Source: Mytilus galloprovincialis
Taxonomy: Eukaryota; Mollusca; Bivalvia; Mytilida; Mytilidae
DNA length: 64,000 nt
NCBI RefSeq assembly: GCF_965363235.1
Contig: NC_134839.1
Location: forward strand, 111,594,517-111,658,516
Direction: 5' to 3'
Of the stretch, positions 3,148 through 62,250 are shown piece after piece. Position 1 is the first letter of the stretch, and each line of letters starts with the position of its first letter. The position numbers were made by a program, and so were the translations under genes. Below the pieces are notes generated by a model. It was given only the letters and a program-made list of their open reading frames with translations, did no database searches and was not told the origin of the DNA.

Positions 3148-3516
3148 TTTAACTAAAAGACACTCTGACTGTTCCTCATACCGAACTACATGATTTTTTC
3201 ACCATTCTGCACCTTATCCTGATATTATCTTATTAGCATAGCTTTAACTTTTTAACTCACATCGGCTAAACGTTGTATCATTTTGGATGTATACGATTTG
3301 GATTTTCTTATATTTCGGCCTTGAGTATTACTGATGAGACAATTGTTGTCAAAATAAGCATCTTGTGAAAGAACATTGGTGACTTTAATGTTTTTATGTG
3401 TTCTCTTAGCTCACATTGCCGTCCTTATTCGACTATTTGTCTGAGAAATTTCACAAAACGGTTGTAGTCATCTTTTTTACATACAGCAAAAAAAAAAAGG
3501 AAAACACAAATTTGTT

Positions 3517-22545: not shown

Positions 22546-22668
22546 TAAACAAACGACAACCACTGAATAACAGGCTCATTAGACTTTTCTAGACTACACA
22601 GATATGGTTTTGTCTCTTATATTTTTATAATCGAACATTTTTTTATAACTTATCATGAAGCTTTTCAA

Positions 22669-23895
22669 AAAGAGGGACGAAAGATACCAAAGGGACAGTC
22701 AAACTCATAAATTTACAACAAACTGACAACGCCATGACTATTAAAATGAAAAATACAAACAGAAAAACAATAGTACACATGACACAACATAGAAAACTAA
22801 AGAATAAACAACACGAACCCCACCAAAAACTAGGGGTGATCTCAGGTGCTCCGGAAGGGTAAGCAGATCCTGCTCCACATGTGGCACCCGTCGTGTTGCT
22901 TATGTGATTACAAATCCGGTAAATAGTCTAATTCGGTAGGTCACATTCATGAAAGGGAAGGGGATTGTAGTTACGACGTAAGGAACATATCCGATATCAT
23001 TTGTGAAACGGTTATTCCATAACGGTCAACCAACTCGTGATGGCGTCCGTAAAATTTACGAAGGGATGATTTCAACTTCAGCATTTGGAACTCTTGGTTT
23101 AATTGCTTCCTTGTGAGCAGTTACCCTCTATCAAGAAAATCATGATAGGAAATGCAAGCACGGGAATATCGTATCAATTGGGAGATATATACCCCGTATG
23201 CAGGTGCTGTTGGAATGTTTCTACTTAGAAATGGAAAGTTCACAATTGGAAAGCTGAAATCATCTCTTTTGTCGTAAAGTTTTGTTTTCAACCGACACTC
23301 GTTGTCAATTTCTAGATGTAAGTCAAGATATGAAGCCGACTTAACTGTATCTGTAGTATCCTTTATCCTCAATTCGATGGGATAGATGCGTTCCACATAG
23401 TCACCAAATTTTGAATTGTTTAGTGAAAGAACGTCATCTATATAGCGGAAAGTAGAGTTAAAGGATATTGCTAACTTCTTATCTTTCTTCCTAAGAAGTT
23501 CCTGCATGAAGTCAGCCTCATAATAATAAAGAAACAAGTCGGCAAGTAGAGGGGCACAGTTAGTTCCTATTGGGATGCCGACAGTCTGTTGAAAAACACG
23601 TCCTCCGAACGTTACAAATATGTTGTCAATCAAGAAATCAAGCATCTTGATAATATCGGTTTCAGAGAATTTTTTGTATGAATCAGAGTGATTCTTTACA
23701 AAGTATGATTTATCCCTCCCTAAGACAAGATACTTGTATCTACGTTGGCCATTCTTTTTTATGAAGCAAAGTAATACCAACTCTTTCAATTTGTCTTTTA
23801 GTTTGGAATGTGGGATACTTGTGTAAATAGTAGAAAAGTCAAATGTTTTAATATTGTTTTCAAAAGCTATTACAAGTTGAAAGTTGACTATTGAT
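22669..23895 (-). mobile_element. Penelope-like element, 5'-truncated, best-kept RT
   Basis: Fossil PLE with its 3' tail at 22669-23100 and the reverse transcriptase from about 23895 downward. The RT keeps a long open stretch (23121-23789) containing LLADLFLYYYEADF, the catalytic FRYIDDVLSL box, ASYLDLHLEID and KLYDKRDDFSFP. The 5' half (endonuclease, CxC linker, early RT fingers) is missing. It looks younger than the copy at 10790-13214 because far fewer breaks are visible. It belongs to the same Naiad-type lineage. Confidence 0.8.
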
Positions 23896-23964
23896 ATGTT
23901 TTTTAATTGAGGGCTGCAAAAGTTTTGTATCTTGATGTTTTATTTGAGTTACTAAAAGTAGGCA

Positions 23965-26796: not shown

Positions 26797-26800
26797 ATAC

Positions 26801-27259
26801 GGTTACAATTGCGCAATTATTTGTTTACATTTCACCGGGAAGTTTTTGAACCCAAGATGGTAGTAAGGAAAAAAATCTATGAGGCTTCTGATTGGATGGT
26901 ATGCCTTCAATTTATTGATTTTATGAAAGATAAACCATTTTTGTGCAAAAATAGTAACAATTTGGAATGATTGATTTAGTATTCTCTGTGGAAATATTTT
27001 TTTTGTGGTAATAGGTTGACTGAAAATTTTGCTATGTCATTTAGTGCGGATTTTGGAAGCGTCCATAACAACAGCTATTTAAGGCAATTTCCGCCGCATA
27101 AGCATGTTGTTTTTTTTTACTGAAATAAATTCTTAGTATGTCTCCTTTCAGATTCTGGCTTTGGTTTCTCTGCAATTTATGTACTTTTTTTTTATTAGGA
27201 TTCAAAGAGACAGGGTACCCTATGGAAAATGCATTGTAAATAATTGCGCAATTGTAACC
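26801..27259. repeat. Module A1: TIR-bounded terminal module
   Basis: 459 bp. The left end GGTTACAATTGCGCAATT and the right end AATTGCGCAATTGTAACC are perfect inverted repeats, identical over 22 bp. The core AATTGCGCAATT is itself a palindrome. Inside lie a TATTTAAG box near 27072, a Kozak-like AAGATGG start of a 37-codon frame (26857), and good splice acceptors (CTCCTTTCAG; a T-run ending ATTAG). It may therefore hold the promoter and 5' leader of the endonuclease gene that follows. In the array it also sits upstream of the transposase of the unit before it. Confidence 0.85.
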
Positions 27260-27355
27260 TATAGAATTTCTCTACTTTCACTTTCGATATTGGATTTTCA
27301 GAAAATCTGACTCTGAATCAAACATTCAATTGATTTGGATTGAATTTTAATCAAT

Positions 27356-27742
27356 ATGGATGACTTTTGGAGAGAACTACAACACAAATTCAACAAAAAA
27401 ACCCAGGGAAGTGTCAATGGAAAGGGGTGTATTGAGTGGTCGGGCACAAAAAAGGGAAAATCTGGTTATGGCATACAGGTTGTGAAATGGCCACAGGGGG
27501 AGGAAAAAAGGGAGGCTGCACATAGAGTGGCATATATGATTAGGCATAAATTGACCAGATATGATATGCCAAAGGTGGATGAAAACAATAATGCAATAGA
27601 GTGTAGCCATATTTGTCACAATGCATCATGTGTAAATGTAAACCACCTTGTGTTAGAACCTCATGCTATTAACTTGGACCGACTGCACTGTAAAAACCAG
27701 GGACTATGTTCAAAGAGTCACAAACCATATTGTTTAATTTAA
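27356..27742 (+). CDS. I-PpoI-like His-Cys box (His-Me finger) endonuclease, unit 1
   Basis: 128 aa. The C-terminal half matches the zinc-binding and active-site region of the homing endonuclease I-PpoI in composition and spacing. His85 corresponds to the general base H98. Cys87, Cys92 and His97 match zinc ligands C100, C105 and H110. Asn106 matches the metal ligand N119. Cys112 matches C125, Cys118 and His122 lie where C132 and H134 are, and Cys25 can fill the place of C41. HICHN and NHLVLEPHAINLDRLHC are the core strings. Such enzymes cut double-stranded DNA as dimers. The start follows an A-rich leader 97 bases after module A; no longer in-frame start is nearby. The stop lies 15 bp from the stop of the convergent transposase. 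All catalytic and zinc residues are kept, so it looks functional. A nuclease of this type inside a DDE transposon is unusual. Confidence 0.88.
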   Translation: MDDFWRELQHKFNKKTQGSVNGKGCIEWSGTKKGKSGYGIQVVKWPQGEEKREAAHRVAYMIRHKLTRYDMPKVDENNNAIECSHICHNASCVNVNHLVLEPHAINLDRLHCKNQGLCSKSHKPYCLI

Positions 27743-27757
27743 AAGTACTAAATTTAT

Positions 27758-29519
27758 TTATTTTCGAATAGAAATCTTCTTCTGCTTCTTGTTCTTAACA
27801 TACGGGTGGTCTTCATGTTTCGATTTTGATGATTTTATCCCGCGGTCAGCTTTCATTAGCATATTCTTTTCATATTGGATTATTTCGCTGAGTTTTTCAT
27901 ATAATTTGTATAACTTGCACCTTTTTTCACCTCGAAATACTTTATAATTTACACTTTGTTTGTGTTTTTTCTGCAAAATGTCAGTTTTTTGAATATTTTT
28001 CAGAGCCTTGTATGCACTACTGCCTACTGGAATATCACAGTGTAGAGCACTACAGAGTTCTAATATAGACTCCCCTGGACCATAATTAACGCTGTGAGCT
28101 GCTGCATGTGCACGACCCGACATGTTTTTCTTGAAAGTAACATTTGAAGGTAATGATCTTCTTAAACACCTATTAAATCCCTCAACAAAATTGGTGTTCA
28201 TGTTTAACCGTGTCTTTTCAAGCACTTTGGAACCTAGTCGCTTATTTATTTGTTTCCGAAGCGAGTCTAAATTCTCATTGCAGCTACTTATTTTAAAAGA
28301 ATTTGGTAAGAAAGGACGGCCTTTTAACCACGATCCCTGAAATCCTTTACAGGCAAAGGAGTTTTTTCTGCACCTGGCATGATCTCCCATGTAGCAGTAA
28401 GCTATGGCATCCACAGTGTGAGAAATTTTATTTTTTACTTTGTAAAAGTCTCCAGCATAAAATTTATAGGCCAGTAATAGTTCTTTGTTACATCTCTCAG
28501 TCAGATCAACAGAGAAATTATTCAAAAGTTTTTGTCTTTTTAGTTTTGTTGTAGCTGGCATCACTTTTAAAAGAGTTTTATCTGACTTTGCTCCTTTACG
28601 TACATGGTCGGAAAGATGTCTAGTGTCTAAAAAGTTTTCTGGCTCAACGGTATTTATTCCCTCATTGTGAAGGTCCATGGCAGCTTTATAGGCAGAACTG
28701 TCTGCATCAGTAACTAAATGCTCAATTTCAAGTTGGTCTTCCTTTAAATCAAGGAGGCATTCCCTGGCCCAGGTATACTCATCTCCTATACTTTTTACCA
28801 TGGGTATATTTGCACTGCAATCATCTGTGCAATCTTCATGAAGTCGGCCTGAGTCATTGTCTACGTCAAGACTAGAATGTTTGGAACAGAGCTTGTTTTT
28901 GATATTTAATGCTAATATATTGTGTTTTGATGTTTCATTTTCAGCTGCCGTATAAATTGTTTGTGTTGCTGGTTGAAATGGAGTGCGGCCTACACCAGAA
29001 TACAGTGGATTATTGTACATTCCATCCATTTGAACACTTATAGCATGTGGATTTTCCTTGCCTCTTAACTTATTTATTTCTACAATATCATTTCTTCTTC
29101 TTTTCATATCCTGTTTATTAATTTGTTCAATTTGTTTCATGACTGTATTTGCTCTTCTTTGTAGGCTAGATGTTGTTGGTGCCAAGATGTTACCACTTAA
29201 GAAGATTTTTTGTATACCAGAATAAGCAATGGGTGATTGACTCAGGCCGACATGAATTGCAGTGTCAAGTTTTGATGCTTTTCTCCCAGGTTTCCCACTT
29301 TCCAATTCTTCATACAGGGTGTACCGCTTTGATTTGTAATCACACTTTGTGCATATTAACTGTTGTCGCGTTCCAAAGCCTCTTTTCTCTTCATTTTCTA
29401 AATCGCATAGCAGAATACCTTCACACTGTGGATTTCTCAATTGATGTTCTTTAAATGCTGCATTCCACATTTCCTCCATCTTGTATATACATATTGCTCT
29501 GTTTGAATTGTAATCCGGT
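27758..29519 (-). CDS. Mutator-like DDE transposase, main (last) exon, unit 1
   Basis: 573 codons from the first Met, plus 13 codons and one base upstream to a strong acceptor (T-rich tract ending TTTTTTAG at 29520-29521). Residues (numbered from that Met): a CxxC-type zinc motif (C19, C25, C43, C46), a K/R-rich stretch around 126-130, first catalytic Asp in VQMDGMYNN (D152), second in LVTDADSSAYKAAM (D258 or D260), a GDHARCRKNSFAC segment (365-377) and the catalytic Glu in NTNFVEGFNRCLRR (E433). The C-terminus is lysine-rich. This is the DDE, RNase-H-fold pattern of the family annotated Mutator-like transposase in invertebrates. The TAA stop overlaps AATAAA-type signals (minus strand, about 27750-27763). 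No stop or frameshift is seen, and the exon is identical in the four units. Confidence 0.85.
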
Positions 29520-29598
29520 CTAAAAAATATAAAAAAAAATAAAAATTAGACTTAGCAAAGTACATATGCCTATTTACTGATTTTGAAAATAGAGTTAC

Positions 29599-29683
29599 CT
29601 GCCCCTTAGTTGACAGATATTTTTCTCTGTGATTTTAGATGGTACATAGACTTTTAAATCTTGCAATATGTATGAAGATGCTT
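29599..29683 (-). CDS. Transposase exon 2, unit 1 (inferred)
   Basis: On the minus strand an 85-bp open stretch reads EASSYILQDLKVYVPSKI then TEKNICQLRG and ends at a consensus donor GGCAG/GTAACTC. Its phase (two bases of a codon) joins exactly to the main exon, giving LRG-R-PDYNSNR. The acceptor (TAATAAAAAG) is weak. The phase does not match the end of exon 1, so either another small exon is missed or the true acceptor lies elsewhere. Confidence 0.6.
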
Positions 29684-29892
29684 CTTTTTATTAATATATT
29701 TGTTGTTAAATTCATAAAAATAACAGTTTATATGATTATACTGTTCTTTTTTAATTAAAAAAGGTGCATAGTGGCTCAAAATGGGCAATTTTTTGTACTT
29801 TTTACTCTATTATTTCCAAATTATTGTCTTTTTTGGTAAAAATATTTCACTTAAACTGTTTATGAGTAAATATTATTCAATTGTTAGCTTAC

Positions 29893-30167
29893 CTTTTGTC
29901 CTTTTTAGCATTTTTCCTGATTGGTTTGGTAAGAAGCACCTCATCACTCATTGGACGGAGTAATCTTGCAGCACGGCAAACCCTTTTGGATTTCTCCTGT
30001 GGATTAGCATACGGATCATTCACTACTAAATTGTGTTTTTCTTTGGTAAGTCTAATGTACTTAGATGTGTAAGAGTCACTTTTATTTTGTTTCACAGTCT
30101 TTCTTTTCTTGTTATAAGGAACATTTCCACCTTTGAATTTGTGTGTATTTCCCTTTTGGAATACCAT
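29893..30167 (-). CDS. Transposase exon 1, unit 1 (inferred)
   Basis: 91 codons and two bases from a Met at 30167 to a consensus donor AAAAG/GTAAGC. The stop of the open frame lies inside the intron start, as expected for an exon. The product is very basic (KKRKTVKQNK, a likely nuclear localisation signal) and includes YTSKYIRLTKEKHNLVV and AARLLRP, typical of the N-terminal part of Mutator-like transposases as I recall them. Upstream (30168-30875) is AT-rich non-coding DNA that would hold the leader, with module A2 beyond. Confidence 0.6.
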
Positions 30168-30875
30168 ATTTAGTAAAACAACAGAATTTTCACTTATATT
30201 CTACACTGTCTTTTTTTTTTATATGCTGATTTTGAATAATGTTCTTATAATTTCTTTTTGCAATATAAGTTGAAATCAAATGCTCACTAATTTATAGAAG
30301 AAATTGAAAAGAAACAGATGACCCCTTAAATTTTTACAGAATTTCTAAATAGACAACAAGATAATGTTTTGATATTTTTATAGTTTCTGTGAGGACAGCC
30401 AGATTTAATGCATATCATCTTTATTTCTCTTATCATTGGTAATAAAATGATAGAGGTTAATGATTCAAAGTGCCTCTTCAGTACACTTTTTTTTGGACAA
30501 AAGTTTTGAAAATATATGAAAAAAGACTGTTTTTCACTATTTTCAATAAATCTTGGGTATATTCCACCCTGAATAAAATTTGAAATCAACTTATACATAC
30601 ACAAAGAAACATTGCTTATATGTACATGAAAAAACAACATTTGTATTTTTTTGTAGAATTTTAATGCTTGAAATTTTCATTTAAACTTCTGTTTCAGTTG
30701 GTATTGCTGACTAAATCTTCTACTGGCCGCAAACATGGGATGAAGTATAGAAATGTCCATTTCTCAAAGAAGACTTCACCGATCACTTCCTAATTTGGTG
30801 TGTGTGATAGACATAGATAGTTGTATATGCAGGCAAAAATAAAGTCTCATTTGAAAACTTTTTATTCTTTCTATA
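30168..30875. other. Right non-coding part of module B, unit 1
   Basis: Presumed 5' region of the transposase gene (minus strand). The minus-strand frame at 30326-30640 shows no domain and no splice support; I regard it as chance. The segment ends CTATA directly before A2, mirroring TATAG directly after A1. Confidence 0.5.
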
Positions 30876-31334
30876 GGTTACAATTGCGCAATTATTTGTT
30901 TACATTTCACCGGGAAGTTTTTGAACCCAAGATGGTAGTAAGGAAAAAAATCTATGAGGCTTCTGATTGGATGGTATGCCTTCAATTTATTGATTTTATG
31001 AAAGATAAACCATTTTTGTGCAAAAATAGTAACAATTTGGAATGATTGATTTAGTATTCTCTGTGGAAATATTTTTTTTGTGGTAATAGGTTGACTGAAA
31101 ATTTTGCTATGTCATTTAGTGCGGATTTTGGAAGCGTCCATAACAACAGCTATTTAAGGCAATTTCCGCCGCATAAGCATGTTGTTTTTTTTTACTGAAA
31201 TAAATTCTTAGTATGTCTCCTTTCAGATTCTGGCTTTGGTTTCTCTGCAATTTATGTACTTTTTTTTTATTAGGATTCAAAGAGACAGGGTACCCTATGG
31301 AAAATGCATTGTAAATAATTGCGCAATTGTAACC
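30876..31334. repeat. Module A2
   Basis: 459 bp, no difference from A1 seen. Flanked inside the array by TATA on both sides. It lies between the divergent transposase of unit 1 and endonuclease of unit 2. Confidence 0.85.
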
Positions 31335-31430
31335 TATAGAATTTCTCTACTTTCACTTTCGATATTGGATTTTCAGAAAATCTGACTCTGAATCAAACAT
31401 TCAATTGATTTGGATTGAATTTTAATCAAT

Positions 31431-31817
31431 ATGGATGACTTTTGGAGAGAACTACAACACAAATTCAACAAAAAAACCCAGGGAAGTGTCAATGGAAAGG
31501 GGTGTATTGAGTGGTCGGGCACAAAAAAGGGAAAATCTGGTTATGGCATACAGGTTGTGAAATGGCCACAGGGGGAGGAAAAAAGGGAGGCTGCACATAG
31601 AGTGGCATATATGATTAGGCATAAATTGACCAGATATGATATGCCAAAGGTGGATGAAAACAATAATGCAATAGAGTGTAGCCATATTTGTCACAATGCA
31701 TCATGTGTAAATGTAAACCACCTTGTGTTAGAACCTCATGCTATTAACTTGGACCGACTGCACTGTAAAAACCAGGGACTATGTTCAAAGAGTCACAAAC
31801 CATATTGTTTAATTTAA
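31431..31817 (+). CDS. I-PpoI-like endonuclease, unit 2
   Basis: Same 128-aa product as at 27356-27742, shifted by exactly 4075 bp, with all zinc and active-site residues kept (H85, N106 and the C/H ligands). Confidence 0.88.
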   Translation: MDDFWRELQHKFNKKTQGSVNGKGCIEWSGTKKGKSGYGIQVVKWPQGEEKREAAHRVAYMIRHKLTRYDMPKVDENNNAIECSHICHNASCVNVNHLVLEPHAINLDRLHCKNQGLCSKSHKPYCLI

Positions 31818-31832
31818 AAGTACTAAATTTAT

Positions 31833-33594
31833 TTATTTTCGAATAGAAATCTTCTTCTGCTTCTTGTTCTTAACATACGGGTGGTCTTCATGTTTCGATT
31901 TTGATGATTTTATCCCGCGGTCAGCTTTCATTAGCATATTCTTTTCATATTGGATTATTTCGCTGAGTTTTTCATATAATTTGTATAACTTGCACCTTTT
32001 TTCACCTCGAAATACTTTATAATTTACACTTTGTTTGTGTTTTTTCTGCAAAATGTCAGTTTTTTGAATATTTTTCAGAGCCTTGTATGCACTACTGCCT
32101 ACTGGAATATCACAGTGTAGAGCACTACAGAGTTCTAATATAGACTCCCCTGGACCATAATTAACGCTGTGAGCTGCTGCATGTGCACGACCCGACATGT
32201 TTTTCTTGAAAGTAACATTTGAAGGTAATGATCTTCTTAAACACCTATTAAATCCCTCAACAAAATTGGTGTTCATGTTTAACCGTGTCTTTTCAAGCAC
32301 TTTGGAACCTAGTCGCTTATTTATTTGTTTCCGAAGCGAGTCTAAATTCTCATTGCAGCTACTTATTTTAAAAGAATTTGGTAAGAAAGGACGGCCTTTT
32401 AACCACGATCCCTGAAATCCTTTACAGGCAAAGGAGTTTTTTCTGCACCTGGCATGATCTCCCATGTAGCAGTAAGCTATGGCATCCACAGTGTGAGAAA
32501 TTTTATTTTTTACTTTGTAAAAGTCTCCAGCATAAAATTTATAGGCCAGTAATAGTTCTTTGTTACATCTCTCAGTCAGATCAACAGAGAAATTATTCAA
32601 AAGTTTTTGTCTTTTTAGTTTTGTTGTAGCTGGCATCACTTTTAAAAGAGTTTTATCTGACTTTGCTCCTTTACGTACATGGTCGGAAAGATGTCTAGTG
32701 TCTAAAAAGTTTTCTGGCTCAACGGTATTTATTCCCTCATTGTGAAGGTCCATGGCAGCTTTATAGGCAGAACTGTCTGCATCAGTAACTAAATGCTCAA
32801 TTTCAAGTTGGTCTTCCTTTAAATCAAGGAGGCATTCCCTGGCCCAGGTATACTCATCTCCTATACTTTTTACCATGGGTATATTTGCACTGCAATCATC
32901 TGTGCAATCTTCATGAAGTCGGCCTGAGTCATTGTCTACGTCAAGACTAGAATGTTTGGAACAGAGCTTGTTTTTGATATTTAATGCTAATATATTGTGT
33001 TTTGATGTTTCATTTTCAGCTGCCGTATAAATTGTTTGTGTTGCTGGTTGAAATGGAGTGCGGCCTACACCAGAATACAGTGGATTATTGTACATTCCAT
33101 CCATTTGAACACTTATAGCATGTGGATTTTCCTTGCCTCTTAACTTATTTATTTCTACAATATCATTTCTTCTTCTTTTCATATCCTGTTTATTAATTTG
33201 TTCAATTTGTTTCATGACTGTATTTGCTCTTCTTTGTAGGCTAGATGTTGTTGGTGCCAAGATGTTACCACTTAAGAAGATTTTTTGTATACCAGAATAA
33301 GCAATGGGTGATTGACTCAGGCCGACATGAATTGCAGTGTCAAGTTTTGATGCTTTTCTCCCAGGTTTCCCACTTTCCAATTCTTCATACAGGGTGTACC
33401 GCTTTGATTTGTAATCACACTTTGTGCATATTAACTGTTGTCGCGTTCCAAAGCCTCTTTTCTCTTCATTTTCTAAATCGCATAGCAGAATACCTTCACA
33501 CTGTGGATTTCTCAATTGATGTTCTTTAAATGCTGCATTCCACATTTCCTCCATCTTGTATATACATATTGCTCTGTTTGAATTGTAATCCGGT
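31833..33594 (-). CDS. Mutator-like DDE transposase, main exon, unit 2
   Basis: Identical product to unit 1 (573 aa from the first Met; D152, D258/D260, E433). It is read towards the endonuclease gene with 15 bp between the stops, and starts after the same TTTTTTAG acceptor. Confidence 0.85.
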
Positions 33595-33673
33595 CTAAAA
33601 AATATAAAAAAAAATAAAAATTAGACTTAGCAAAGTACATATGCCTATTTACTGATTTTGAAAATAGAGTTAC

Positions 33674-34242
33674 CTGCCCCTTAGTTGACAGATATTTTTC
33701 TCTGTGATTTTAGATGGTACATAGACTTTTAAATCTTGCAATATGTATGAAGATGCTTCTTTTTATTAATATATTTGTTGTTAAATTCATAAAAATAACA
33801 GTTTATATGATTATACTGTTCTTTTTTAATTAAAAAAGGTGCATAGTGGCTCAAAATGGGCAATTTTTTGTACTTTTTACTCTATTATTTCCAAATTATT
33901 GTCTTTTTTGGTAAAAATATTTCACTTAAACTGTTTATGAGTAAATATTATTCAATTGTTAGCTTACCTTTTGTCCTTTTTAGCATTTTTCCTGATTGGT
34001 TTGGTAAGAAGCACCTCATCACTCATTGGACGGAGTAATCTTGCAGCACGGCAAACCCTTTTGGATTTCTCCTGTGGATTAGCATACGGATCATTCACTA
34101 CTAAATTGTGTTTTTCTTTGGTAAGTCTAATGTACTTAGATGTGTAAGAGTCACTTTTATTTTGTTTCACAGTCTTTCTTTTCTTGTTATAAGGAACATT
34201 TCCACCTTTGAATTTGTGTGTATTTCCCTTTTGGAATACCAT
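33674..34242 (-). CDS. Transposase exons 1 and 2, unit 2 (inferred)
   Basis: Exon 1 is 33968-34242 and exon 2 is 33674-33758, as in unit 1, with the same donors (GTAAGC, GTAACTC) and the same unresolved phase between the two exons. Confidence 0.55.
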
Positions 34243-34950
34243 ATTTAGTAAAACAACAGAATTTTCACTTATATTCTACACTGTCTTTTTTTTTTATATG
34301 CTGATTTTGAATAATGTTCTTATAATTTCTTTTTGCAATATAAGTTGAAATCAAATGCTCACTAATTTATAGAAGAAATTGAAAAGAAACAGATGACCCC
34401 TTAAATTTTTACAGAATTTCTAAATAGACAACAAGATAATGTTTTGATATTTTTATAGTTTCTGTGAGGACAGCCAGATTTAATGCATATCATCTTTATT
34501 TCTCTTATCATTGGTAATAAAATGATAGAGGTTAATGATTCAAAGTGCCTCTTCAGTACACTTTTTTTTGGACAAAAGTTTTGAAAATATATGAAAAAAG
34601 ACTGTTTTTCACTATTTTCAATAAATCTTGGGTATATTCCACCCTGAATAAAATTTGAAATCAACTTATACATACACAAAGAAACATTGCTTATATGTAC
34701 ATGAAAAAACAACATTTGTATTTTTTTGTAGAATTTTAATGCTTGAAATTTTCATTTAAACTTCTGTTTCAGTTGGTATTGCTGACTAAATCTTCTACTG
34801 GCCGCAAACATGGGATGAAGTATAGAAATGTCCATTTCTCAAAGAAGACTTCACCGATCACTTCCTAATTTGGTGTGTGTGATAGACATAGATAGTTGTA
34901 TATGCAGGCAAAAATAAAGTCTCATTTGAAAACTTTTTATTCTTTCTATA

Positions 34951-35409
34951 GGTTACAATTGCGCAATTATTTGTTTACATTTCACCGGGAAGTTTTTGAA
35001 CCCAAGATGGTAGTAAGGAAAAAAATCTATGAGGCTTCTGATTGGATGGTATGCCTTCAATTTATTGATTTTATGAAAGATAAACCATTTTTGTGCAAAA
35101 ATAGTAACAATTTGGAATGATTGATTTAGTATTCTCTGTGGAAATATTTTTTTTGTGGTAATAGGTTGACTGAAAATTTTGCTATGTCATTTAGTGCGGA
35201 TTTTGGAAGCGTCCATAACAACAGCTATTTAAGGCAATTTCCGCCGCATAAGCATGTTGTTTTTTTTTACTGAAATAAATTCTTAGTATGTCTCCTTTCA
35301 GATTCTGGCTTTGGTTTCTCTGCAATTTATGTACTTTTTTTTTATTAGGATTCAAAGAGACAGGGTACCCTATGGAAAATGCATTGTAAATAATTGCGCA
35401 ATTGTAACC
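34951..35409. repeat. Module A3
   Basis: 459 bp, same ends and inner boundaries as A2. Confidence 0.85.
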
Positions 35410-35505
35410 TATAGAATTTCTCTACTTTCACTTTCGATATTGGATTTTCAGAAAATCTGACTCTGAATCAAACATTCAATTGATTTGGATTGAATTTTAA
35501 TCAAT

Positions 35506-35892
35506 ATGGATGACTTTTGGAGAGAACTACAACACAAATTCAACAAAAAAACCCAGGGAAGTGTCAATGGAAAGGGGTGTATTGAGTGGTCGGGCACAAA
35601 AAAGGGAAAATCTGGTTATGGCATACAGGTTGTGAAATGGCCACAGGGGGAGGAAAAAAGGGAGGCTGCACATAGAGTGGCATATATGATTAGGCATAAA
35701 TTGACCAGATATGATATGCCAAAGGTGGATGAAAACAATAATGCAATAGAGTGTAGCCATATTTGTCACAATGCATCATGTGTAAATGTAAACCACCTTG
35801 TGTTAGAACCTCATGCTATTAACTTGGACCGACTGCACTGTAAAAACCAGGGACTATGTTCAAAGAGTCACAAACCATATTGTTTAATTTAA
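35506..35892 (+). CDS. I-PpoI-like endonuclease, unit 3
   Basis: Identical 128-aa product to units 1 and 2, with the His-Cys box intact. Confidence 0.88.
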   Translation: MDDFWRELQHKFNKKTQGSVNGKGCIEWSGTKKGKSGYGIQVVKWPQGEEKREAAHRVAYMIRHKLTRYDMPKVDENNNAIECSHICHNASCVNVNHLVLEPHAINLDRLHCKNQGLCSKSHKPYCLI

Positions 35893-35907
35893 AAGTACTA
35901 AATTTAT

Positions 35908-37669
35908 TTATTTTCGAATAGAAATCTTCTTCTGCTTCTTGTTCTTAACATACGGGTGGTCTTCATGTTTCGATTTTGATGATTTTATCCCGCGGTCAGC
36001 TTTCATTAGCATATTCTTTTCATATTGGATTATTTCGCTGAGTTTTTCATATAATTTGTATAACTTGCACCTTTTTTCACCTCGAAATACTTTATAATTT
36101 ACACTTTGTTTGTGTTTTTTCTGCAAAATGTCAGTTTTTTGAATATTTTTCAGAGCCTTGTATGCACTACTGCCTACTGGAATATCACAGTGTAGAGCAC
36201 TACAGAGTTCTAATATAGACTCCCCTGGACCATAATTAACGCTGTGAGCTGCTGCATGTGCACGACCCGACATGTTTTTCTTGAAAGTAACATTTGAAGG
36301 TAATGATCTTCTTAAACACCTATTAAATCCCTCAACAAAATTGGTGTTCATGTTTAACCGTGTCTTTTCAAGCACTTTGGAACCTAGTCGCTTATTTATT
36401 TGTTTCCGAAGCGAGTCTAAATTCTCATTGCAGCTACTTATTTTAAAAGAATTTGGTAAGAAAGGACGGCCTTTTAACCACGATCCCTGAAATCCTTTAC
36501 AGGCAAAGGAGTTTTTTCTGCACCTGGCATGATCTCCCATGTAGCAGTAAGCTATGGCATCCACAGTGTGAGAAATTTTATTTTTTACTTTGTAAAAGTC
36601 TCCAGCATAAAATTTATAGGCCAGTAATAGTTCTTTGTTACATCTCTCAGTCAGATCAACAGAGAAATTATTCAAAAGTTTTTGTCTTTTTAGTTTTGTT
36701 GTAGCTGGCATCACTTTTAAAAGAGTTTTATCTGACTTTGCTCCTTTACGTACATGGTCGGAAAGATGTCTAGTGTCTAAAAAGTTTTCTGGCTCAACGG
36801 TATTTATTCCCTCATTGTGAAGGTCCATGGCAGCTTTATAGGCAGAACTGTCTGCATCAGTAACTAAATGCTCAATTTCAAGTTGGTCTTCCTTTAAATC
36901 AAGGAGGCATTCCCTGGCCCAGGTATACTCATCTCCTATACTTTTTACCATGGGTATATTTGCACTGCAATCATCTGTGCAATCTTCATGAAGTCGGCCT
37001 GAGTCATTGTCTACGTCAAGACTAGAATGTTTGGAACAGAGCTTGTTTTTGATATTTAATGCTAATATATTGTGTTTTGATGTTTCATTTTCAGCTGCCG
37101 TATAAATTGTTTGTGTTGCTGGTTGAAATGGAGTGCGGCCTACACCAGAATACAGTGGATTATTGTACATTCCATCCATTTGAACACTTATAGCATGTGG
37201 ATTTTCCTTGCCTCTTAACTTATTTATTTCTACAATATCATTTCTTCTTCTTTTCATATCCTGTTTATTAATTTGTTCAATTTGTTTCATGACTGTATTT
37301 GCTCTTCTTTGTAGGCTAGATGTTGTTGGTGCCAAGATGTTACCACTTAAGAAGATTTTTTGTATACCAGAATAAGCAATGGGTGATTGACTCAGGCCGA
37401 CATGAATTGCAGTGTCAAGTTTTGATGCTTTTCTCCCAGGTTTCCCACTTTCCAATTCTTCATACAGGGTGTACCGCTTTGATTTGTAATCACACTTTGT
37501 GCATATTAACTGTTGTCGCGTTCCAAAGCCTCTTTTCTCTTCATTTTCTAAATCGCATAGCAGAATACCTTCACACTGTGGATTTCTCAATTGATGTTCT
37601 TTAAATGCTGCATTCCACATTTCCTCCATCTTGTATATACATATTGCTCTGTTTGAATTGTAATCCGGT
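35908..37669 (-). CDS. Mutator-like DDE transposase, main exon, unit 3
   Basis: Identical 573-aa frame and acceptor to unit 1, with the DDE residues kept. Confidence 0.85.
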
Positions 37670-37748
37670 CTAAAAAATATAAAAAAAAATAAAAATTAGA
37701 CTTAGCAAAGTACATATGCCTATTTACTGATTTTGAAAATAGAGTTAC

Positions 37749-38317
37749 CTGCCCCTTAGTTGACAGATATTTTTCTCTGTGATTTTAGATGGTACATAGA
37801 CTTTTAAATCTTGCAATATGTATGAAGATGCTTCTTTTTATTAATATATTTGTTGTTAAATTCATAAAAATAACAGTTTATATGATTATACTGTTCTTTT
37901 TTAATTAAAAAAGGTGCATAGTGGCTCAAAATGGGCAATTTTTTGTACTTTTTACTCTATTATTTCCAAATTATTGTCTTTTTTGGTAAAAATATTTCAC
38001 TTAAACTGTTTATGAGTAAATATTATTCAATTGTTAGCTTACCTTTTGTCCTTTTTAGCATTTTTCCTGATTGGTTTGGTAAGAAGCACCTCATCACTCA
38101 TTGGACGGAGTAATCTTGCAGCACGGCAAACCCTTTTGGATTTCTCCTGTGGATTAGCATACGGATCATTCACTACTAAATTGTGTTTTTCTTTGGTAAG
38201 TCTAATGTACTTAGATGTGTAAGAGTCACTTTTATTTTGTTTCACAGTCTTTCTTTTCTTGTTATAAGGAACATTTCCACCTTTGAATTTGTGTGTATTT
38301 CCCTTTTGGAATACCAT
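37749..38317 (-). CDS. Transposase exons 1 and 2, unit 3 (inferred)
   Basis: Exon 1 is 38043-38317 and exon 2 is 37749-37833, with the same splice signals as unit 1. Confidence 0.55.
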
Positions 38318-39025
38318 ATTTAGTAAAACAACAGAATTTTCACTTATATTCTACACTGTCTTTTTTTTTTATATGCTGATTTTGAATAATGTTCTTATAA
38401 TTTCTTTTTGCAATATAAGTTGAAATCAAATGCTCACTAATTTATAGAAGAAATTGAAAAGAAACAGATGACCCCTTAAATTTTTACAGAATTTCTAAAT
38501 AGACAACAAGATAATGTTTTGATATTTTTATAGTTTCTGTGAGGACAGCCAGATTTAATGCATATCATCTTTATTTCTCTTATCATTGGTAATAAAATGA
38601 TAGAGGTTAATGATTCAAAGTGCCTCTTCAGTACACTTTTTTTTGGACAAAAGTTTTGAAAATATATGAAAAAAGACTGTTTTTCACTATTTTCAATAAA
38701 TCTTGGGTATATTCCACCCTGAATAAAATTTGAAATCAACTTATACATACACAAAGAAACATTGCTTATATGTACATGAAAAAACAACATTTGTATTTTT
38801 TTGTAGAATTTTAATGCTTGAAATTTTCATTTAAACTTCTGTTTCAGTTGGTATTGCTGACTAAATCTTCTACTGGCCGCAAACATGGGATGAAGTATAG
38901 AAATGTCCATTTCTCAAAGAAGACTTCACCGATCACTTCCTAATTTGGTGTGTGTGATAGACATAGATAGTTGTATATGCAGGCAAAAATAAAGTCTCAT
39001 TTGAAAACTTTTTATTCTTTCTATA

Positions 39026-39484
39026 GGTTACAATTGCGCAATTATTTGTTTACATTTCACCGGGAAGTTTTTGAACCCAAGATGGTAGTAAGGAAAAAAA
39101 TCTATGAGGCTTCTGATTGGATGGTATGCCTTCAATTTATTGATTTTATGAAAGATAAACCATTTTTGTGCAAAAATAGTAACAATTTGGAATGATTGAT
39201 TTAGTATTCTCTGTGGAAATATTTTTTTTGTGGTAATAGGTTGACTGAAAATTTTGCTATGTCATTTAGTGCGGATTTTGGAAGCGTCCATAACAACAGC
39301 TATTTAAGGCAATTTCCGCCGCATAAGCATGTTGTTTTTTTTTACTGAAATAAATTCTTAGTATGTCTCCTTTCAGATTCTGGCTTTGGTTTCTCTGCAA
39401 TTTATGTACTTTTTTTTTATTAGGATTCAAAGAGACAGGGTACCCTATGGAAAATGCATTGTAAATAATTGCGCAATTGTAACC
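39026..39484. repeat. Module A4
   Basis: 459 bp, same ends and inner boundaries as A2. Confidence 0.85.
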
Positions 39485-39580
39485 TATAGAATTTCTCTAC
39501 TTTCACTTTCGATATTGGATTTTCAGAAAATCTGACTCTGAATCAAACATTCAATTGATTTGGATTGAATTTTAATCAAT

Positions 39581-39967
39581 ATGGATGACTTTTGGAGAGA
39601 ACTACAACACAAATTCAACAAAAAAACCCAGGGAAGTGTCAATGGAAAGGGGTGTATTGAGTGGTCGGGCACAAAAAAGGGAAAATCTGGTTATGGCATA
39701 CAGGTTGTGAAATGGCCACAGGGGGAGGAAAAAAGGGAGGCTGCACATAGAGTGGCATATATGATTAGGCATAAATTGACCAGATATGATATGCCAAAGG
39801 TGGATGAAAACAATAATGCAATAGAGTGTAGCCATATTTGTCACAATGCATCATGTGTAAATGTAAACCACCTTGTGTTAGAACCTCATGCTATTAACTT
39901 GGACCGACTGCACTGTAAAAACCAGGGACTATGTTCAAAGAGTCACAAACCATATTGTTTAATTTAA
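39581..39967 (+). CDS. I-PpoI-like endonuclease, unit 4
   Basis: Identical 128-aa product to the other units. Confidence 0.88.
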   Translation: MDDFWRELQHKFNKKTQGSVNGKGCIEWSGTKKGKSGYGIQVVKWPQGEEKREAAHRVAYMIRHKLTRYDMPKVDENNNAIECSHICHNASCVNVNHLVLEPHAINLDRLHCKNQGLCSKSHKPYCLI

Positions 39968-39982
39968 AAGTACTAAATTTAT

Positions 39983-41744
39983 TTATTTTCGAATAGAAAT
40001 CTTCTTCTGCTTCTTGTTCTTAACATACGGGTGGTCTTCATGTTTCGATTTTGATGATTTTATCCCGCGGTCAGCTTTCATTAGCATATTCTTTTCATAT
40101 TGGATTATTTCGCTGAGTTTTTCATATAATTTGTATAACTTGCACCTTTTTTCACCTCGAAATACTTTATAATTTACACTTTGTTTGTGTTTTTTCTGCA
40201 AAATGTCAGTTTTTTGAATATTTTTCAGAGCCTTGTATGCACTACTGCCTACTGGAATATCACAGTGTAGAGCACTACAGAGTTCTAATATAGACTCCCC
40301 TGGACCATAATTAACGCTGTGAGCTGCTGCATGTGCACGACCCGACATGTTTTTCTTGAAAGTAACATTTGAAGGTAATGATCTTCTTAAACACCTATTA
40401 AATCCCTCAACAAAATTGGTGTTCATGTTTAACCGTGTCTTTTCAAGCACTTTGGAACCTAGTCGCTTATTTATTTGTTTCCGAAGCGAGTCTAAATTCT
40501 CATTGCAGCTACTTATTTTAAAAGAATTTGGTAAGAAAGGACGGCCTTTTAACCACGATCCCTGAAATCCTTTACAGGCAAAGGAGTTTTTTCTGCACCT
40601 GGCATGATCTCCCATGTAGCAGTAAGCTATGGCATCCACAGTGTGAGAAATTTTATTTTTTACTTTGTAAAAGTCTCCAGCATAAAATTTATAGGCCAGT
40701 AATAGTTCTTTGTTACATCTCTCAGTCAGATCAACAGAGAAATTATTCAAAAGTTTTTGTCTTTTTAGTTTTGTTGTAGCTGGCATCACTTTTAAAAGAG
40801 TTTTATCTGACTTTGCTCCTTTACGTACATGGTCGGAAAGATGTCTAGTGTCTAAAAAGTTTTCTGGCTCAACGGTATTTATTCCCTCATTGTGAAGGTC
40901 CATGGCAGCTTTATAGGCAGAACTGTCTGCATCAGTAACTAAATGCTCAATTTCAAGTTGGTCTTCCTTTAAATCAAGGAGGCATTCCCTGGCCCAGGTA
41001 TACTCATCTCCTATACTTTTTACCATGGGTATATTTGCACTGCAATCATCTGTGCAATCTTCATGAAGTCGGCCTGAGTCATTGTCTACGTCAAGACTAG
41101 AATGTTTGGAACAGAGCTTGTTTTTGATATTTAATGCTAATATATTGTGTTTTGATGTTTCATTTTCAGCTGCCGTATAAATTGTTTGTGTTGCTGGTTG
41201 AAATGGAGTGCGGCCTACACCAGAATACAGTGGATTATTGTACATTCCATCCATTTGAACACTTATAGCATGTGGATTTTCCTTGCCTCTTAACTTATTT
41301 ATTTCTACAATATCATTTCTTCTTCTTTTCATATCCTGTTTATTAATTTGTTCAATTTGTTTCATGACTGTATTTGCTCTTCTTTGTAGGCTAGATGTTG
41401 TTGGTGCCAAGATGTTACCACTTAAGAAGATTTTTTGTATACCAGAATAAGCAATGGGTGATTGACTCAGGCCGACATGAATTGCAGTGTCAAGTTTTGA
41501 TGCTTTTCTCCCAGGTTTCCCACTTTCCAATTCTTCATACAGGGTGTACCGCTTTGATTTGTAATCACACTTTGTGCATATTAACTGTTGTCGCGTTCCA
41601 AAGCCTCTTTTCTCTTCATTTTCTAAATCGCATAGCAGAATACCTTCACACTGTGGATTTCTCAATTGATGTTCTTTAAATGCTGCATTCCACATTTCCT
41701 CCATCTTGTATATACATATTGCTCTGTTTGAATTGTAATCCGGT
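39983..41744 (-). CDS. Mutator-like DDE transposase, main exon, unit 4
   Basis: Identical 573-aa frame and acceptor to the other units. Confidence 0.85.
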
Positions 41745-41823
41745 CTAAAAAATATAAAAAAAAATAAAAATTAGACTTAGCAAAGTACATATGCCTATTT
41801 ACTGATTTTGAAAATAGAGTTAC

Positions 41824-42392
41824 CTGCCCCTTAGTTGACAGATATTTTTCTCTGTGATTTTAGATGGTACATAGACTTTTAAATCTTGCAATATGTATGA
41901 AGATGCTTCTTTTTATTAATATATTTGTTGTTAAATTCATAAAAATAACAGTTTATATGATTATACTGTTCTTTTTTAATTAAAAAAGGTGCATAGTGGC
42001 TCAAAATGGGCAATTTTTTGTACTTTTTACTCTATTATTTCCAAATTATTGTCTTTTTTGGTAAAAATATTTCACTTAAACTGTTTATGAGTAAATATTA
42101 TTCAATTGTTAGCTTACCTTTTGTCCTTTTTAGCATTTTTCCTGATTGGTTTGGTAAGAAGCACCTCATCACTCATTGGACGGAGTAATCTTGCAGCACG
42201 GCAAACCCTTTTGGATTTCTCCTGTGGATTAGCATACGGATCATTCACTACTAAATTGTGTTTTTCTTTGGTAAGTCTAATGTACTTAGATGTGTAAGAG
42301 TCACTTTTATTTTGTTTCACAGTCTTTCTTTTCTTGTTATAAGGAACATTTCCACCTTTGAATTTGTGTGTATTTCCCTTTTGGAATACCAT
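41824..42392 (-). CDS. Transposase exons 1 and 2, unit 4 (inferred)
   Basis: Exon 1 is 42118-42392 and exon 2 is 41824-41908. Module A5 lies upstream and closes the array. Confidence 0.55.
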
Positions 42393-43100
42393 ATTTAGTA
42401 AAACAACAGAATTTTCACTTATATTCTACACTGTCTTTTTTTTTTATATGCTGATTTTGAATAATGTTCTTATAATTTCTTTTTGCAATATAAGTTGAAA
42501 TCAAATGCTCACTAATTTATAGAAGAAATTGAAAAGAAACAGATGACCCCTTAAATTTTTACAGAATTTCTAAATAGACAACAAGATAATGTTTTGATAT
42601 TTTTATAGTTTCTGTGAGGACAGCCAGATTTAATGCATATCATCTTTATTTCTCTTATCATTGGTAATAAAATGATAGAGGTTAATGATTCAAAGTGCCT
42701 CTTCAGTACACTTTTTTTTGGACAAAAGTTTTGAAAATATATGAAAAAAGACTGTTTTTCACTATTTTCAATAAATCTTGGGTATATTCCACCCTGAATA
42801 AAATTTGAAATCAACTTATACATACACAAAGAAACATTGCTTATATGTACATGAAAAAACAACATTTGTATTTTTTTGTAGAATTTTAATGCTTGAAATT
42901 TTCATTTAAACTTCTGTTTCAGTTGGTATTGCTGACTAAATCTTCTACTGGCCGCAAACATGGGATGAAGTATAGAAATGTCCATTTCTCAAAGAAGACT
43001 TCACCGATCACTTCCTAATTTGGTGTGTGTGATAGACATAGATAGTTGTATATGCAGGCAAAAATAAAGTCTCATTTGAAAACTTTTTATTCTTTCTATA

Positions 43101-43560
43101 GGTTACAATTGCGCAATTATTTGTTTACATTTCACCGGGAAGTTTTTGAACCCAAGATGGTAGTAAGGAAAAAAATCTATGAGGCTTCTGATTGGATGGT
43201 ATGCCTTCAATTTATTGATTTTATGAAAGATAAACCATTTTTGTGCAAAAATAGTAACAATTTGGAATGATTGATTTAGTATTCTCTGTGGAAATATTTT
43301 TTTTGTGGTAATAGGTTGACTGAAAATTTTGCTATGTCATTTAGTGCGGATTTTGGAAGCGTCCATAACAACAGCTATTTAAGGCAATTTCCGCCGCATA
43401 AGCATGTTGTTTTTTTTTACTGAAATAAATTCTTAGTATGTCTCCTTTCAGATTCTGGCTTTGGTTTCTCTGCAATTTATGTACTTTTTTTTTTATTAGG
43501 ATTCAAAGAGACAGGGTACCCTATGGAAAATGCATTGTAAATAATTGCGCAATTGTAACC
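43101..43560. repeat. Module A5, closing the array
   Basis: 460 bp. It differs from A1-A4 by one extra T in the T-run before ATTAGG (10 instead of 9). It ends AATTGCGCAATTGTAACC and is followed by ATAC, not by the TATAG that starts a B module. The array therefore stops precisely at an A inverted repeat. Confidence 0.85.
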
Positions 43561-43564
43561 ATAC

Positions 43565-52065: not shown

Positions 52066-52346
52066 TCGAATCAAAACATGTTAAAACGCAAATGAAAATA
52101 CGAATTTGAAGAACACAACAGGTATATTTGACGGTGGGCAATAAAGCGCATCACAATTTTTTTCATCTTGTACCATAAGGCTGTTTTCAATTATTGGTGG
52201 ATGGTATTGGTTCCGCTTGAAGTTAGTAAAATAGAAAGCAGAACAATACTTGATATAGACAAAGAAAGTGATGTCTTGCAAAAACAATACAAATGAGAGA
52301 CACAAAATACCACATGGAAATTCAAATTCATCAATCCAATGGCAAA

Positions 52347-52610
52347 TAAAGGCAACAGTAGTATACCGCTGTTCAAAACTCATAAATCCATGGACAAAAA
52401 ACATAATCGGGGTAACAAACTAAAACTGAGTGAAACGCATTAAATATAAGAGAACAACGACACAACATTAAGATGTAACACACACACACACACACATAAA
52501 TCAGAAACGGACTAAGCATTAGACAAAATCCGTTGAAAATAACAAATATAACATCTAAACCAAATACATGAATTTGGAATAGATAAGTACCGTGACACGT
52601 GTTATAACAA
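52347..52610 (-). repeat. R1 repeat, 3' half, minus strand
   Basis: Inverted R1 copy from TAAAGGCAACAGTAGTATAC to ACCGTGACACGTGTTATAAC. It contains a (CA)n run near 52480-52496 at the same place as the (GT)n in the copy at 2765-3147. Confidence 0.75.
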
Positions 52611-53650
52611 GTTTAATTTTTTTAAAACGAATCACAACGTAAAGAAAAAACAATGTTTAACAAAATTTAATGTAGAAAACTAATCTTGGAGGATATTCTG
52701 AGAAATCAGATTTTCATTATTAATTTCTAGCATCATGTGTGACGTGTTATACAATACTATACTCTTTCAGGTAAGATAACATTGGTTGGTCAATGTCACG
52801 TCCTTACTCGAGTAGTTTTGTTCAGAACTAATATGGATATCCAGAAAATCAAGATCAGCTTAAATTCTAATTTCCTTTATATAATCCTAAAATTTGTAAA
52901 CCTCCTACAATGACTGTGTGCTTGAAAGCCATGAATGATTTAAACATTATTACGTTAACTTTAATTTATGCATATATGAGATGAATGAATTCTCTGATGT
53001 TTTTAACATTTACCCTGATTATATTTACACCTCATTAACGTACAAATACATTTCCAAAAAGTGTTTTAAGCAATATAATTTTCAATAGTATATTATATCT
53101 TACTGTTTTTCAACAAAACAGTAATTTTCGCTGTTTAAATCCCAACTAAACAAGAAGATGAATAAAATAATTGTTGGTCGTAGTGTATGCTACCAGCACA
53201 AAGCTTCAATAATATAGATATTATTAAGGCAATGATATTGTTGGAACAATACATTCAAATTAATATACATTTATCATATGATGAAAATCACCATGACACA
53301 AAAAAACGGATTGAACAAAGAGGTTCATTAGCCATTCATAAGGAAGACATAGTAAATAATTGTGTAAATCTATGTAGTGACAGATTGAATAAAATAACTT
53401 ACTGACGAAAATATATTACATAAAATATATTGTTATTAGATTAAAAACGTAAAGTAATAACAATCTATGGCGTTCTGCAATGGATAGGATCTTGATTAAA
53501 TGTTACAAATTTAATACAGACTATATGCCGATTGTACGCTTTAAACATGATAATCCGCTAAATATTATTTTCATCCCATAAAAGTTTTGACATTAATAAC
53601 TTACTATGACTTTATTGATCGGTTACGTTTATATGCTATAGCTGCTATAC
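52611..53650. other. Non-coding stretch
   Basis: Nothing recognised. The frame at 53187-53405 has no domain or splice support. Confidence 0.35.
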
Positions 53651-55213: not shown

Positions 55214-55294
55214 ATAAAAATTTTAAACTTGTTGCCTTTTGTTAGCTATTATTTGTATGTTCCTATTTATTTATATTGTAGTCCTGTAATTTTG

Positions 55295-55763
55295 TGTTGT
55301 CATTTTAATGTTATATTTCAAATGGCCATAAAAGAGGGAGGTTTGGCATGCCACAAAACCAGGTTCAACCCACCATTTTTTCCTTTAAAAATGTCCTGTA
55401 CCAAGTCAGGAATATGGCCATTGCTATATAACAGTTCGTTTCTGTGTGTGTTACATTTTAACGTTGTGTTTCCGTTGTGTCGTTTGTTTTCTTTTATTTT
55501 TGAGTGTGAATTCACATTATTATAAGACGTATCACGGTACTTATCTATCCCAAATTCATGTATTTGGTTTTGATGTTATATTTGTTATTCTCATAGAATT
55601 TTGTCTAATGCTTGGTCCGTTTCTGTGTGTGTCACATTTGAATGTTGTGTCGTTGTTCTCTTATATTTGATGCGTTTCCCTCGGTTTTAGTTTGTTACCC
55701 CGATTTTGTTTTTTGTCCATGGATTTATGAGTTTTGAACAGTGGTATACTACTGTTGCCTTTA
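55295..55763 (+). repeat. R1 interspersed repeat, full-length copy
   Basis: Starts TGTTGTCATTTTAATGTTAT and ends CTACTGTTGCCTTTA, the same limits as the copy at 4036-4498. Open frames on both strands across it arise from the repeat. Confidence 0.8.
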
Positions 55764-58373
55764 TTTACCCCGCTGAATCAGTAATTGAGTCAACCATTAT
55801 GTTACTTTGTCTATAGTTAATGTGTGTGTTGTTTTGTGGAATATATTTAGTCTGGTTTTTTTTTTCTCTTTGCTTTTGTATTGCCAGCTTTTAATCAACA
55901 TTTATTTTTTATTGTTCCGTTTATAATTATTAATCCTTTTGTTGTTTCATTGCTAAGTATATGGTTAATTTATAAACCAAAATCCGCAGCCTCTTCATTT
56001 GACAATTCGTATTAAAGTAATAATTGCATTCAGTTCTACCAATGACTTCCCTAAAACAAGTATATAAATAAATGTATTGATTACAACATGTATAAGTATA
56101 GATTTATTCAAGTACACCTTCTACATTGCCCTATATTTTAGTGACTCAGGACGAAGCTTTGTAAATATATAAAGTTTGTTTAGGATCTTTTTAAATTTAT
56201 TTAAAAGTATTAGTACGTCATGGTCAAGTGCGTTATCTAAGTTTAAAATTTAACATAGAAAATATTTTAAAAAAAGTCTGTGAATATTCTGCAACCTTTT
56301 GGATAAATGTCCATATCATCCCCATATTAAATACAAAGAAACAGTATACAGTACACGATACAGTATTACTTTGAACAGTAGTTACTGTTGGTAAATGTAC
56401 AGAAATTCTCCTCTGTGACTTCGACTTTTGTATTTTTGCTGTTTTCGTATTGAAAATTTCGTAATACACATCTCTGCATAAGGGGCATCAATCTTTATCT
56501 CTTAATTTTAATTTTCATTGTTTTAAAAACAAAATTCATTTAGTCTTGGTGCTGTCATCTTATAGCGTTTTACTCTGTCCATTGTAAACTCTTCTTCGTA
56601 TCTTTTTATCAGAAATGTCGTTTTAAAACCTTCTGAAAAGTAATCGACAAATAAACAAAAATAGCAGTTAACTATGCTATGATAAAATAACTGAATTTAA
56701 ACAATAGGTGCACAACAACTGATATTATCACCCTTTTGATGAGCAAGTGGAGTTTTATTTACATGTCGTCATCTCTGATGTCGACTTTCTTCTCTCCTTT
56801 AATTCTCAAGATAAAAAAACTTGAAAAAAAAATGTAATAATAGATTTTTAACACATTTGCTTACTATATTTATTAAAGAATCGAAATTACTTTATTGAAA
56901 TTATTATTCAGACATACCAATCACCACTAGAGCTAGTAAAATTCCAAACCAGGAAGAGATTTCAATACGATACTAGTAAAGTGATAACGGAACTATTTTA
57001 GGAAGCTTTTTTTCCCAAACAAGCTAGATAATAGATATCGATAAATAAGAATTTATATAAACTTGTTTATTCATGATTTAGATTGAAATATTACGATTTA
57101 GTTTAGATGTAATGTAATATAATGATAACCAGAGAGTAATCCTAGATTTCTTGTATAAAATAAAGGAACCTTTTACTAGAATGCTGGACTTGTGATGTAA
57201 ATTGTTAACAGCGTGCAATATTGTTAAATGAAAAGAAAATTACCAGTGAGGCTGAAAAACACTTTCCATCGAAACCTAAACAATATGATATTCCAGGACA
57301 CTCTCAGATTGGGTTTATAATCATTTCAATCTATGTTTCTCCTTAAATTTTAATAACAAAATGGACAGAGGGGATTTGTTGATTTACCATGCACAATTAT
57401 AACACGCACTGGTGAAAACAATCAGAATAATTACAAAATTACTTGTACTGCAGACGTTATATGAGGAAAAAGAAATTTGCATTTTAAGTATTTTCATGTG
57501 CACAATTCTTGCAAATTTCTATTCTTCTTATATTAGAAGTTAATATAATAAAAAATAACGTACAAAAACAATCACCAGATGCGTCGAAGTTAAACTTTGA
57601 CTGGGTGTTGGAACATATATTCTTGACAACTGTACGATTTGCAATCATCCATTTGTAACTTAAAATTTATTTATCCATCTGAAACTTCGATAGGTCTTTA
57701 AAATGTGATAAATGTGTTCTCACCTTTTATATTATCATTGTATCGTCTTTACATGTTGTACTTGATATGTAATTCTTTATTGCTTGCTATAGGACATGAC
57801 ACTGATTGTATTGATAGATTATTGACACGGACGTTCATTCAATATTACAGTCAGTCTAGATAAATGTCATCACAAGACAATTTTTTCAGTCATCATTATG
57901 AAGTTGTCAGAGTAAAAATGTGCCACGTAAATATCGTTGATGATTATTCGGTCCGATCGACTTTATTTGGATGTAAGAGGGTTTATATCATATAAACACA
58001 AAACAAATCCAGATTGTCGTATAATTGGAGGAAACTCTTACGTCCAATTCAAGTACAAATGATGTGATAAGGTCATGACGGAACTAATAAATCTTATAGA
58101 AAAAATAATACTATCATCAAATCATCTTTGACCGAAGGCAGGAAATTAATTTTACGGATAAGAGAAATAAACCGGGAATGTTTCGTATCTCTCATGTAAA
58201 TATGACCGTCTTAACAATGGACACGTTTTATCTACTGATAGGTCTGTCGCTTTGATTATCGATTCTGCATAAGACAAAATTTTAAAAAGAACTTACAGGG
58301 TAGTTATATGGTTGTATTTTTTTTTCTTTTATTACAATTTGTTAAATAGAAATTGTCATTTCTTCCTTTGCAG
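55764..58373. other. Non-coding stretch, likely upstream region of the receptor gene
   Basis: No coding sequence recognised. It ends in the acceptor of the first coding exon, so at least one 5' untranslated exon must lie upstream, possibly in this stretch. Confidence 0.4.
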
Positions 58374-61905: not shown

Positions 61906-62250
61906 TTTTGCTATGATAAAGATATAATAATTAATCAAACTTTTTCTGTTTTCATGTTCTAAAGTTTGCGTTTTCCGGTGCATTTTTGCGGCCATGTATA
62001 TTATCGGATGTATTTGGTAATGTTGATTACTGTGTAACATGCATGATGGTGCTCTTTGAGTGTCTACTGTCAAAGTAAAGAGAAATCTATAACATTGATG
62101 TTAATTATAATTAATATCATATCTTATGTTAGTCGACAGGAATGTTTCGTTATAAAATATTACATACATAAATCATTCCCAGTTACTGTATCTTGTAAAT
62201 TGCCTTATATATTTGTTCATTCTTATCATGAACAATTATACAAATTTCAG

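Follow-up and report, generated by a model that had tools for sequence, protein, structure and literature searches.

A KolobokP-lineage DNA transposon multimer of five long terminal direct repeats and four internal regions

The window analysed in this study, a 64-kb stretch of DNA from Mytilus galloprovincialis, contains an array in which five long terminal direct repeats (LTDRs, here A) alternate with four internal regions (INTs, here B). The array is a (LTDR-INT)4-LTDR multimer of the KolobokP lineage, and we regard its assignment to this lineage of DNA transposons as nearly certain. Kojima & Bao (2022, Mob DNA 13:24; PMC9587614) described KolobokP as an internal region placed between LTDRs of ~450 or ~660 bp. 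For a eukaryotic DNA transposon such an architecture is unusual, yet it is already described and named and does not constitute a new transposon type. In this sense, the original prediction read the architecture correctly but held that no named superfamily possessed it, which is wrong given the description of 2022. The copy reported here is useful as a clean and well-preserved example, with open reading frames in four units and one base difference, and it offers a good basis for asking what the His-Me nuclease cuts and what role it has in multimerisation or in the upkeep of the LTDRs.

Structure of the array

The array occupies positions 26801-43560 exactly, in the form A-(B-A)4, with both outer limits on A ends. 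This layout had been proposed beforehand and is confirmed by an exact period of 4075, which holds with zero mismatches across 26801-43493 and stops there because the fifth A has an extra T in a T-run (Table 1). The four remaining A copies are identical 459-mers and the four B copies are a single identical 3616-bp sequence, one base being the total difference among the array units. The monomer corresponding to these modules would measure 459+3616+459 = 4534 bp. An exact four-unit array of this length cannot have originated by chance.

Table 1. Positions of the modules, target site duplications and coding features in the window. The coding features are given for the first unit.
Feature	Position	Strand	Basis
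Left outer target site duplication, ATAC	26797..26800	.	flank comparison
A1 = LTDR 1, 459 bp, 22-bp perfect TIRs, GG...CC	26801..27259	.	
B1 = INT 1, 3616 bp, TATA at start and end	27260..30875	.	
His-Me finger nuclease ORF (His-Cys box, I-PpoI-like), 128 aa	27356..27742	+	PF05551 match
DDD/E transposase main exon, 573 aa from first ATG	27758..29479	-	PF20700 match
Predicted transposase 5' exon	29893..30167	-	splice prediction
A2 = LTDR 2, 459 bp, TATA either side	30876..31334	.	
B2 = INT 2, same sequence as INT 1	31335..34950	.	
A3 = LTDR 3, 459 bp, TATA either side	34951..35409	.	
B3 = INT 3, same sequence as INT 1	35410..39025	.	
A4 = LTDR 4, 459 bp, TATA either side	39026..39484	.	
B4 = INT 4, same sequence as INT 1	39485..43100	.	
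A5 = LTDR 5, 460 bp, extra T in T-run	43101..43560	.	
Right outer target site duplication, ATAC	43561..43564	.	flank comparison

Each A opens with GGTTACAATTGCGCAATTATTT and closes with the reverse complement of these bases, exact at 22/22 positions, so that the perfect inverted ends of the form GG...CC, and with them a DNA transposon whose direct terminal modules are bounded by TIRs, were found as anticipated. The expected 4-bp flanking duplication is ATAC, which is found immediately outside the array on both sides, and TATA is present at 8/8 internal A/B junctions. Since ATAC marks the outer limits only and TATA the eight internal junctions, it is A ends that delimit the inserted unit. A different way to obtain such a pattern would be that A is an unrelated MITE which landed beside or within tandem copies of another transposon, B; inside the array A is indeed TIR-bounded and flanked by TATA/TATA, as an insertion might be. 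We find this extremely unlikely, as an A end closes the array on each side, with ATAC duplicated next to it, and this kind of pairing recurs in the 228 published KolobokP families (PMC9587614). Furthermore, the B ends share just TATAGAA in inverted orientation when compared by eye, and blastn of B against itself gave no inverted match at its ends with E up to 1.

With the array masked, blastn found no further copies of A or B in the 64-kb window (short weak matches, best E 0.016) and no solo A. A search of the whole window against Rfam at the gathering score gave 0 matches. Other repeats do occur around the array. Dispersed repeat copies of about 86-89% identity lie at 4032-4502, 55291-55767, 2760-3151 and 52341-52618. 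Fragments of a reverse-transcriptase element, possibly Penelope-like, are located at 23121-23939 (minus strand), with related copies at 12490-13048 and 5467-6107; the match to RVT_1 (23124-23939, E 8.1e-05) is below the Pfam gathering score, and self-blast gives 91-97% identity between the copies and parts of 22668-23853. Additionally, an ORF at 62047-62754 (+) matches the hormone receptor domain PF02793 (E 4.6e-07) and probably belongs, as an exon, to a class-B GPCR gene of the host.

Proteins encoded in the internal region

The two genes predicted in B, a DDE transposase and a nuclease, were both supported by Pfam. The 573-aa ORF, present in all four units, has a match to PF20700 (Mutator-like transposase) that spans residues 1-377, with an E value of 1.5e-44. 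By motif reading, its putative signature residues are D152, D258 or D260, DTRH at 285-288 and E433, in the published order, with a C/H cluster at 362-377 (C362/H367/C370/C377) between DTRH and E433; the assignment of E433 depends on motif reading because this residue lies beyond the Pfam-matched region. Motif reading also places C198, H201, H214, C217 and C221 between D152 and D258, so that the second (CCHC) zinc finger is matched at the level of a C/H cluster only. A predicted 373-bp intron would join the 5' exon to the main exon and give a transposase of 678 aa, as predicted from the sequence by one of four tried splice combinations giving >600 aa.

The 128-aa nuclease, which recurs at offsets of +4075, +8150 and +12225 in the remaining units, shows a strong match to PF05551 (homing endonucleases, zinc-binding loop region; E 1.3e-14). 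Its similarity to I-PpoI PDB chains in phmmer is weak taken alone (E 0.048-0.063); in that alignment the I-PpoI residues S97, H98, H110, E114 and N119 are all kept (5/5). Structure predictions with AlphaFold without alignment had a mean pLDDT of 38.5 for the nuclease and 35.7 for the transposase, both too low to use. Pfam gave no match for the third ORF of B, a minus-strand frame of 104 aa at 30326-30640, and we do not put it forward as a gene.

No NCBIfam family was matched by the nuclease or by the transposase (0 each). We also scanned contigs for relatives by means of exact 8-residue words, which limits the reach of these scans to close relatives. In the viral contigs, the nuclease gave one stretch with a pattern match and 0 confirmed by tblastn, and the transposase gave no pattern match; in the genome contigs, 20 stretches had a pattern match with the transposase and 0 were confirmed. 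A degenerate nuclease motif pointed to one contig, L001, where a short translated stretch contains the HNH-like motif RHICHN...CVNPNHL. The first 18 bases of the TIR had 0 matches in the viral contigs.

Assignment to KolobokP

KolobokP comprises 228 families from seven animal phyla, and its forms are reported especially from bivalves, almost all of the analysed bivalve genomes having at least one family (PMC9587614). Of eight of its features that we compared, seven are found in the array: the LTDR layout, the TIRs of the LTDR, the termini, the target site duplication (TSD), the transposase, the nuclease and the multimer; for the eighth, the CCHC finger, the match goes no further than a C/H cluster. 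We made these comparisons against the published description in PMC9587614. The LTDRs of 459/460 bp around an INT of 3616 bp correspond to the class of about 450 bp. Published LTDRs carry their own TIRs, in a range up to 18 bp, and RR...YY termini (PMC9587614); here the TIRs are longer, at 22 bp, and the termini are GG...CC. The TSDs of KolobokP are short, of 3-4 or 4-5 bp for solo LTDRs, its multimers are usually TSD-flanked and no strong target specificity was reported (PMC9587614), to which ATAC/ATAC conforms; the TTAA TSD of canonical Kolobok is not seen, ATAC being outside and TATA inside the array.

The published transposase is a DDD/E protein with C/DxxH between the second D and E, a zinc finger between C/DxxH and E, and a second zinc finger, of CCHC type, downstream of the first D (PMC9587614). 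The PF20700 match, together with the residues obtained by motif reading, agrees with a DDD/E transposase having C/DxxH and a zinc finger. The published His-Me finger nuclease is encoded downstream of the transposase, on the opposite strand, and has the I-PpoI residues S97, H98, H110, E114 and N119 (PMC9587614), as does the PF05551 protein of each INT, placed in the same manner. The (LTDR-INT)n-LTDR form is present with n = 4. The expectation that A-B-A is the full element, with solo A and longer arrays as further forms, also agrees with the literature, which gives a table of monomers, solo LTDRs and (LTDR-INT)n-LTDR multimers, with their TSDs, in three molluscs (PMC9587614). In the library searched, no paper beyond Kojima & Bao (2022) named KolobokP or linked Kolobok to LTDRs, and none named PF20700.

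Two other classes were rejected. An LTR retrotransposon was set aside, given that Pfam, run on three ORFs of B, recognised a transposase and a nuclease and that A has 22-bp TIRs. The TSD of MuDR elements is 8-11 bp. An ordinary Mutator (MuDR) was set aside despite the Pfam name, as a TSD of 4 bp misfits MuDR and fits KolobokP.

Probable origin and expansion of the array

We think it probable that the KolobokP multimer started as a transposase-made insertion at ATAC and later gained units by recombination between the A repeats. The TSD and the ends suggest that the DDD/E transposase would have joined the outermost GG...CC ends to the target, duplicating ATAC. Further units would then have come either from homologous recombination among the A copies, which are identical direct repeats, or from an A-B circle that integrated into one of them; exchange between direct repeats and circle integration are both published proposals (PMC9587614). 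Neither route would alter the TSD outside the array or the TATA at its internal junctions. The nuclease may stimulate the exchange by cutting a site in the element, as was also proposed (PMC9587614). The four identical INTs with open reading frames suggest that the expansion was recent or that the units were homogenised.

One left and one right outer TIR with a matching TSD would also be expected if a ready-made multimer (a whole excised array, a concatemer or a circle) had inserted at ATAC in one step, with no growth in place. Such a history seems rather unlikely to us, although a monomer growing in place yields the same sequence and the array does not separate the two. The identity of the units except for one T, and a copy number taken from the assembled sequence, would likewise be compatible with tandem copies created by the assembly from a single A-B-A insertion. 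We consider an artefact of this kind very improbable, since TSD-flanked multimers are commonly reported in the published families (PMC9587614, Table 2).

Candidate sites for the nuclease

When one A and one TATA are removed, the resulting INT-INT junction reads TTCTATAGAA, a 10-bp perfect palindrome whose centre is the 4 bp present at every internal A/B junction; at the outer target, ATAC, the palindromic centre is merely 2 bp (arm 1). I-PpoI cuts a semi-palindromic site and leaves 4-base 3' overhangs (PMC9587614). Taken together, this palindrome and the cutting mode of I-PpoI suggest that the nuclease could cut INT-INT junctions devoid of A. A possible explanation for the layout, by analogy, may be that the LTDR plays the part of an intron lodged in a homing site, A occupying the palindromic recognition site of the nuclease itself. 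An A-less junction would be cut, and A would return when the break is repaired from a nearby unit that has it. If true, this would explain the upkeep of a fragile composite layout, a question left open in PMC9587614, where the authors' own proposal, as we understand it, puts the cleavage within the LTDR or where TIRs abut.

We give the homing analogy little credence. In the window minus the array and microsatellites, 14/570 background TATA sites are equally palindromic (at least 10 bp), and with microsatellites included 49/610 TATA sites outside the array lie in palindromes of at least 10 bp. In addition, INT-INT arrays with no A at the junction have been reported, including four from KolobokP-1_MeMe in which one TATA stands at the junction (PMC9587614).

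Each TIR also holds a 12-bp perfect palindrome, AATTGCGCAATT, for example at 26807-26818 and 27242-27253. This makes ten copies in the array, and a search of the rest of the window that allowed up to one mismatch gave none. From its sequence, AATTGCGCAATT is a possible candidate for a dimeric protein-binding or nuclease site, and as a competing candidate cut site it would suit the published model of induced crossover. Palindromes of at least 12 bp, as in the TIR, are held by 275/47156 22-mers of the window minus the array and microsatellites, and by 359/47156 when microsatellites are included. Given these backgrounds for TATA sites and for 22-mers, we do not take either palindrome to prove that the nuclease cuts there.

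Comparison with known systems

The closest system is KolobokP itself, which the array resembles in the LTDR-INT-LTDR layout with multimers, the ~450-bp LTDR class, the TIR-bounded LTDR, the RR/YY ends, the short TSDs, and a DDD/E transposase and a His-Me nuclease on opposite strands. The length is also alike, as autonomous families from oyster measure 4022-4748 bp and the monomer here 4534 bp, and the INT of KolobokP-1_MeMe begins and ends with TATA (PMC9587614), as the INT here does. The difference is the perfect TIR of 22 bp against a published maximum of 18 bp.

Within the wider group, Kol0, KolobokE, KolobokH and KolobokD share the DDD/E transposase with the C/DxxH signature and the RR...YY ends, but LTDRs have been described in KolobokP only and the others have other accessory proteins; canonical Kolobok has a TSD of TTAA (PMC9587614), in contrast to ATAC here. 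Direct terminal repeats and solo repeats are also found in LTR retrotransposons, and tandem arrays in TRIMs (PMC9587614), whereas our array has 22-bp TIRs on A and, as the Pfam-matched proteins of B, a transposase and a nuclease. Finally, bacterial composite transposons and IS26 pseudo-composites likewise have two direct, TIR-bounded end modules that may be mobile by themselves or together with their interior (PMC9587614), but in the array described here the transposase gene is found in the interior and not in the end modules.
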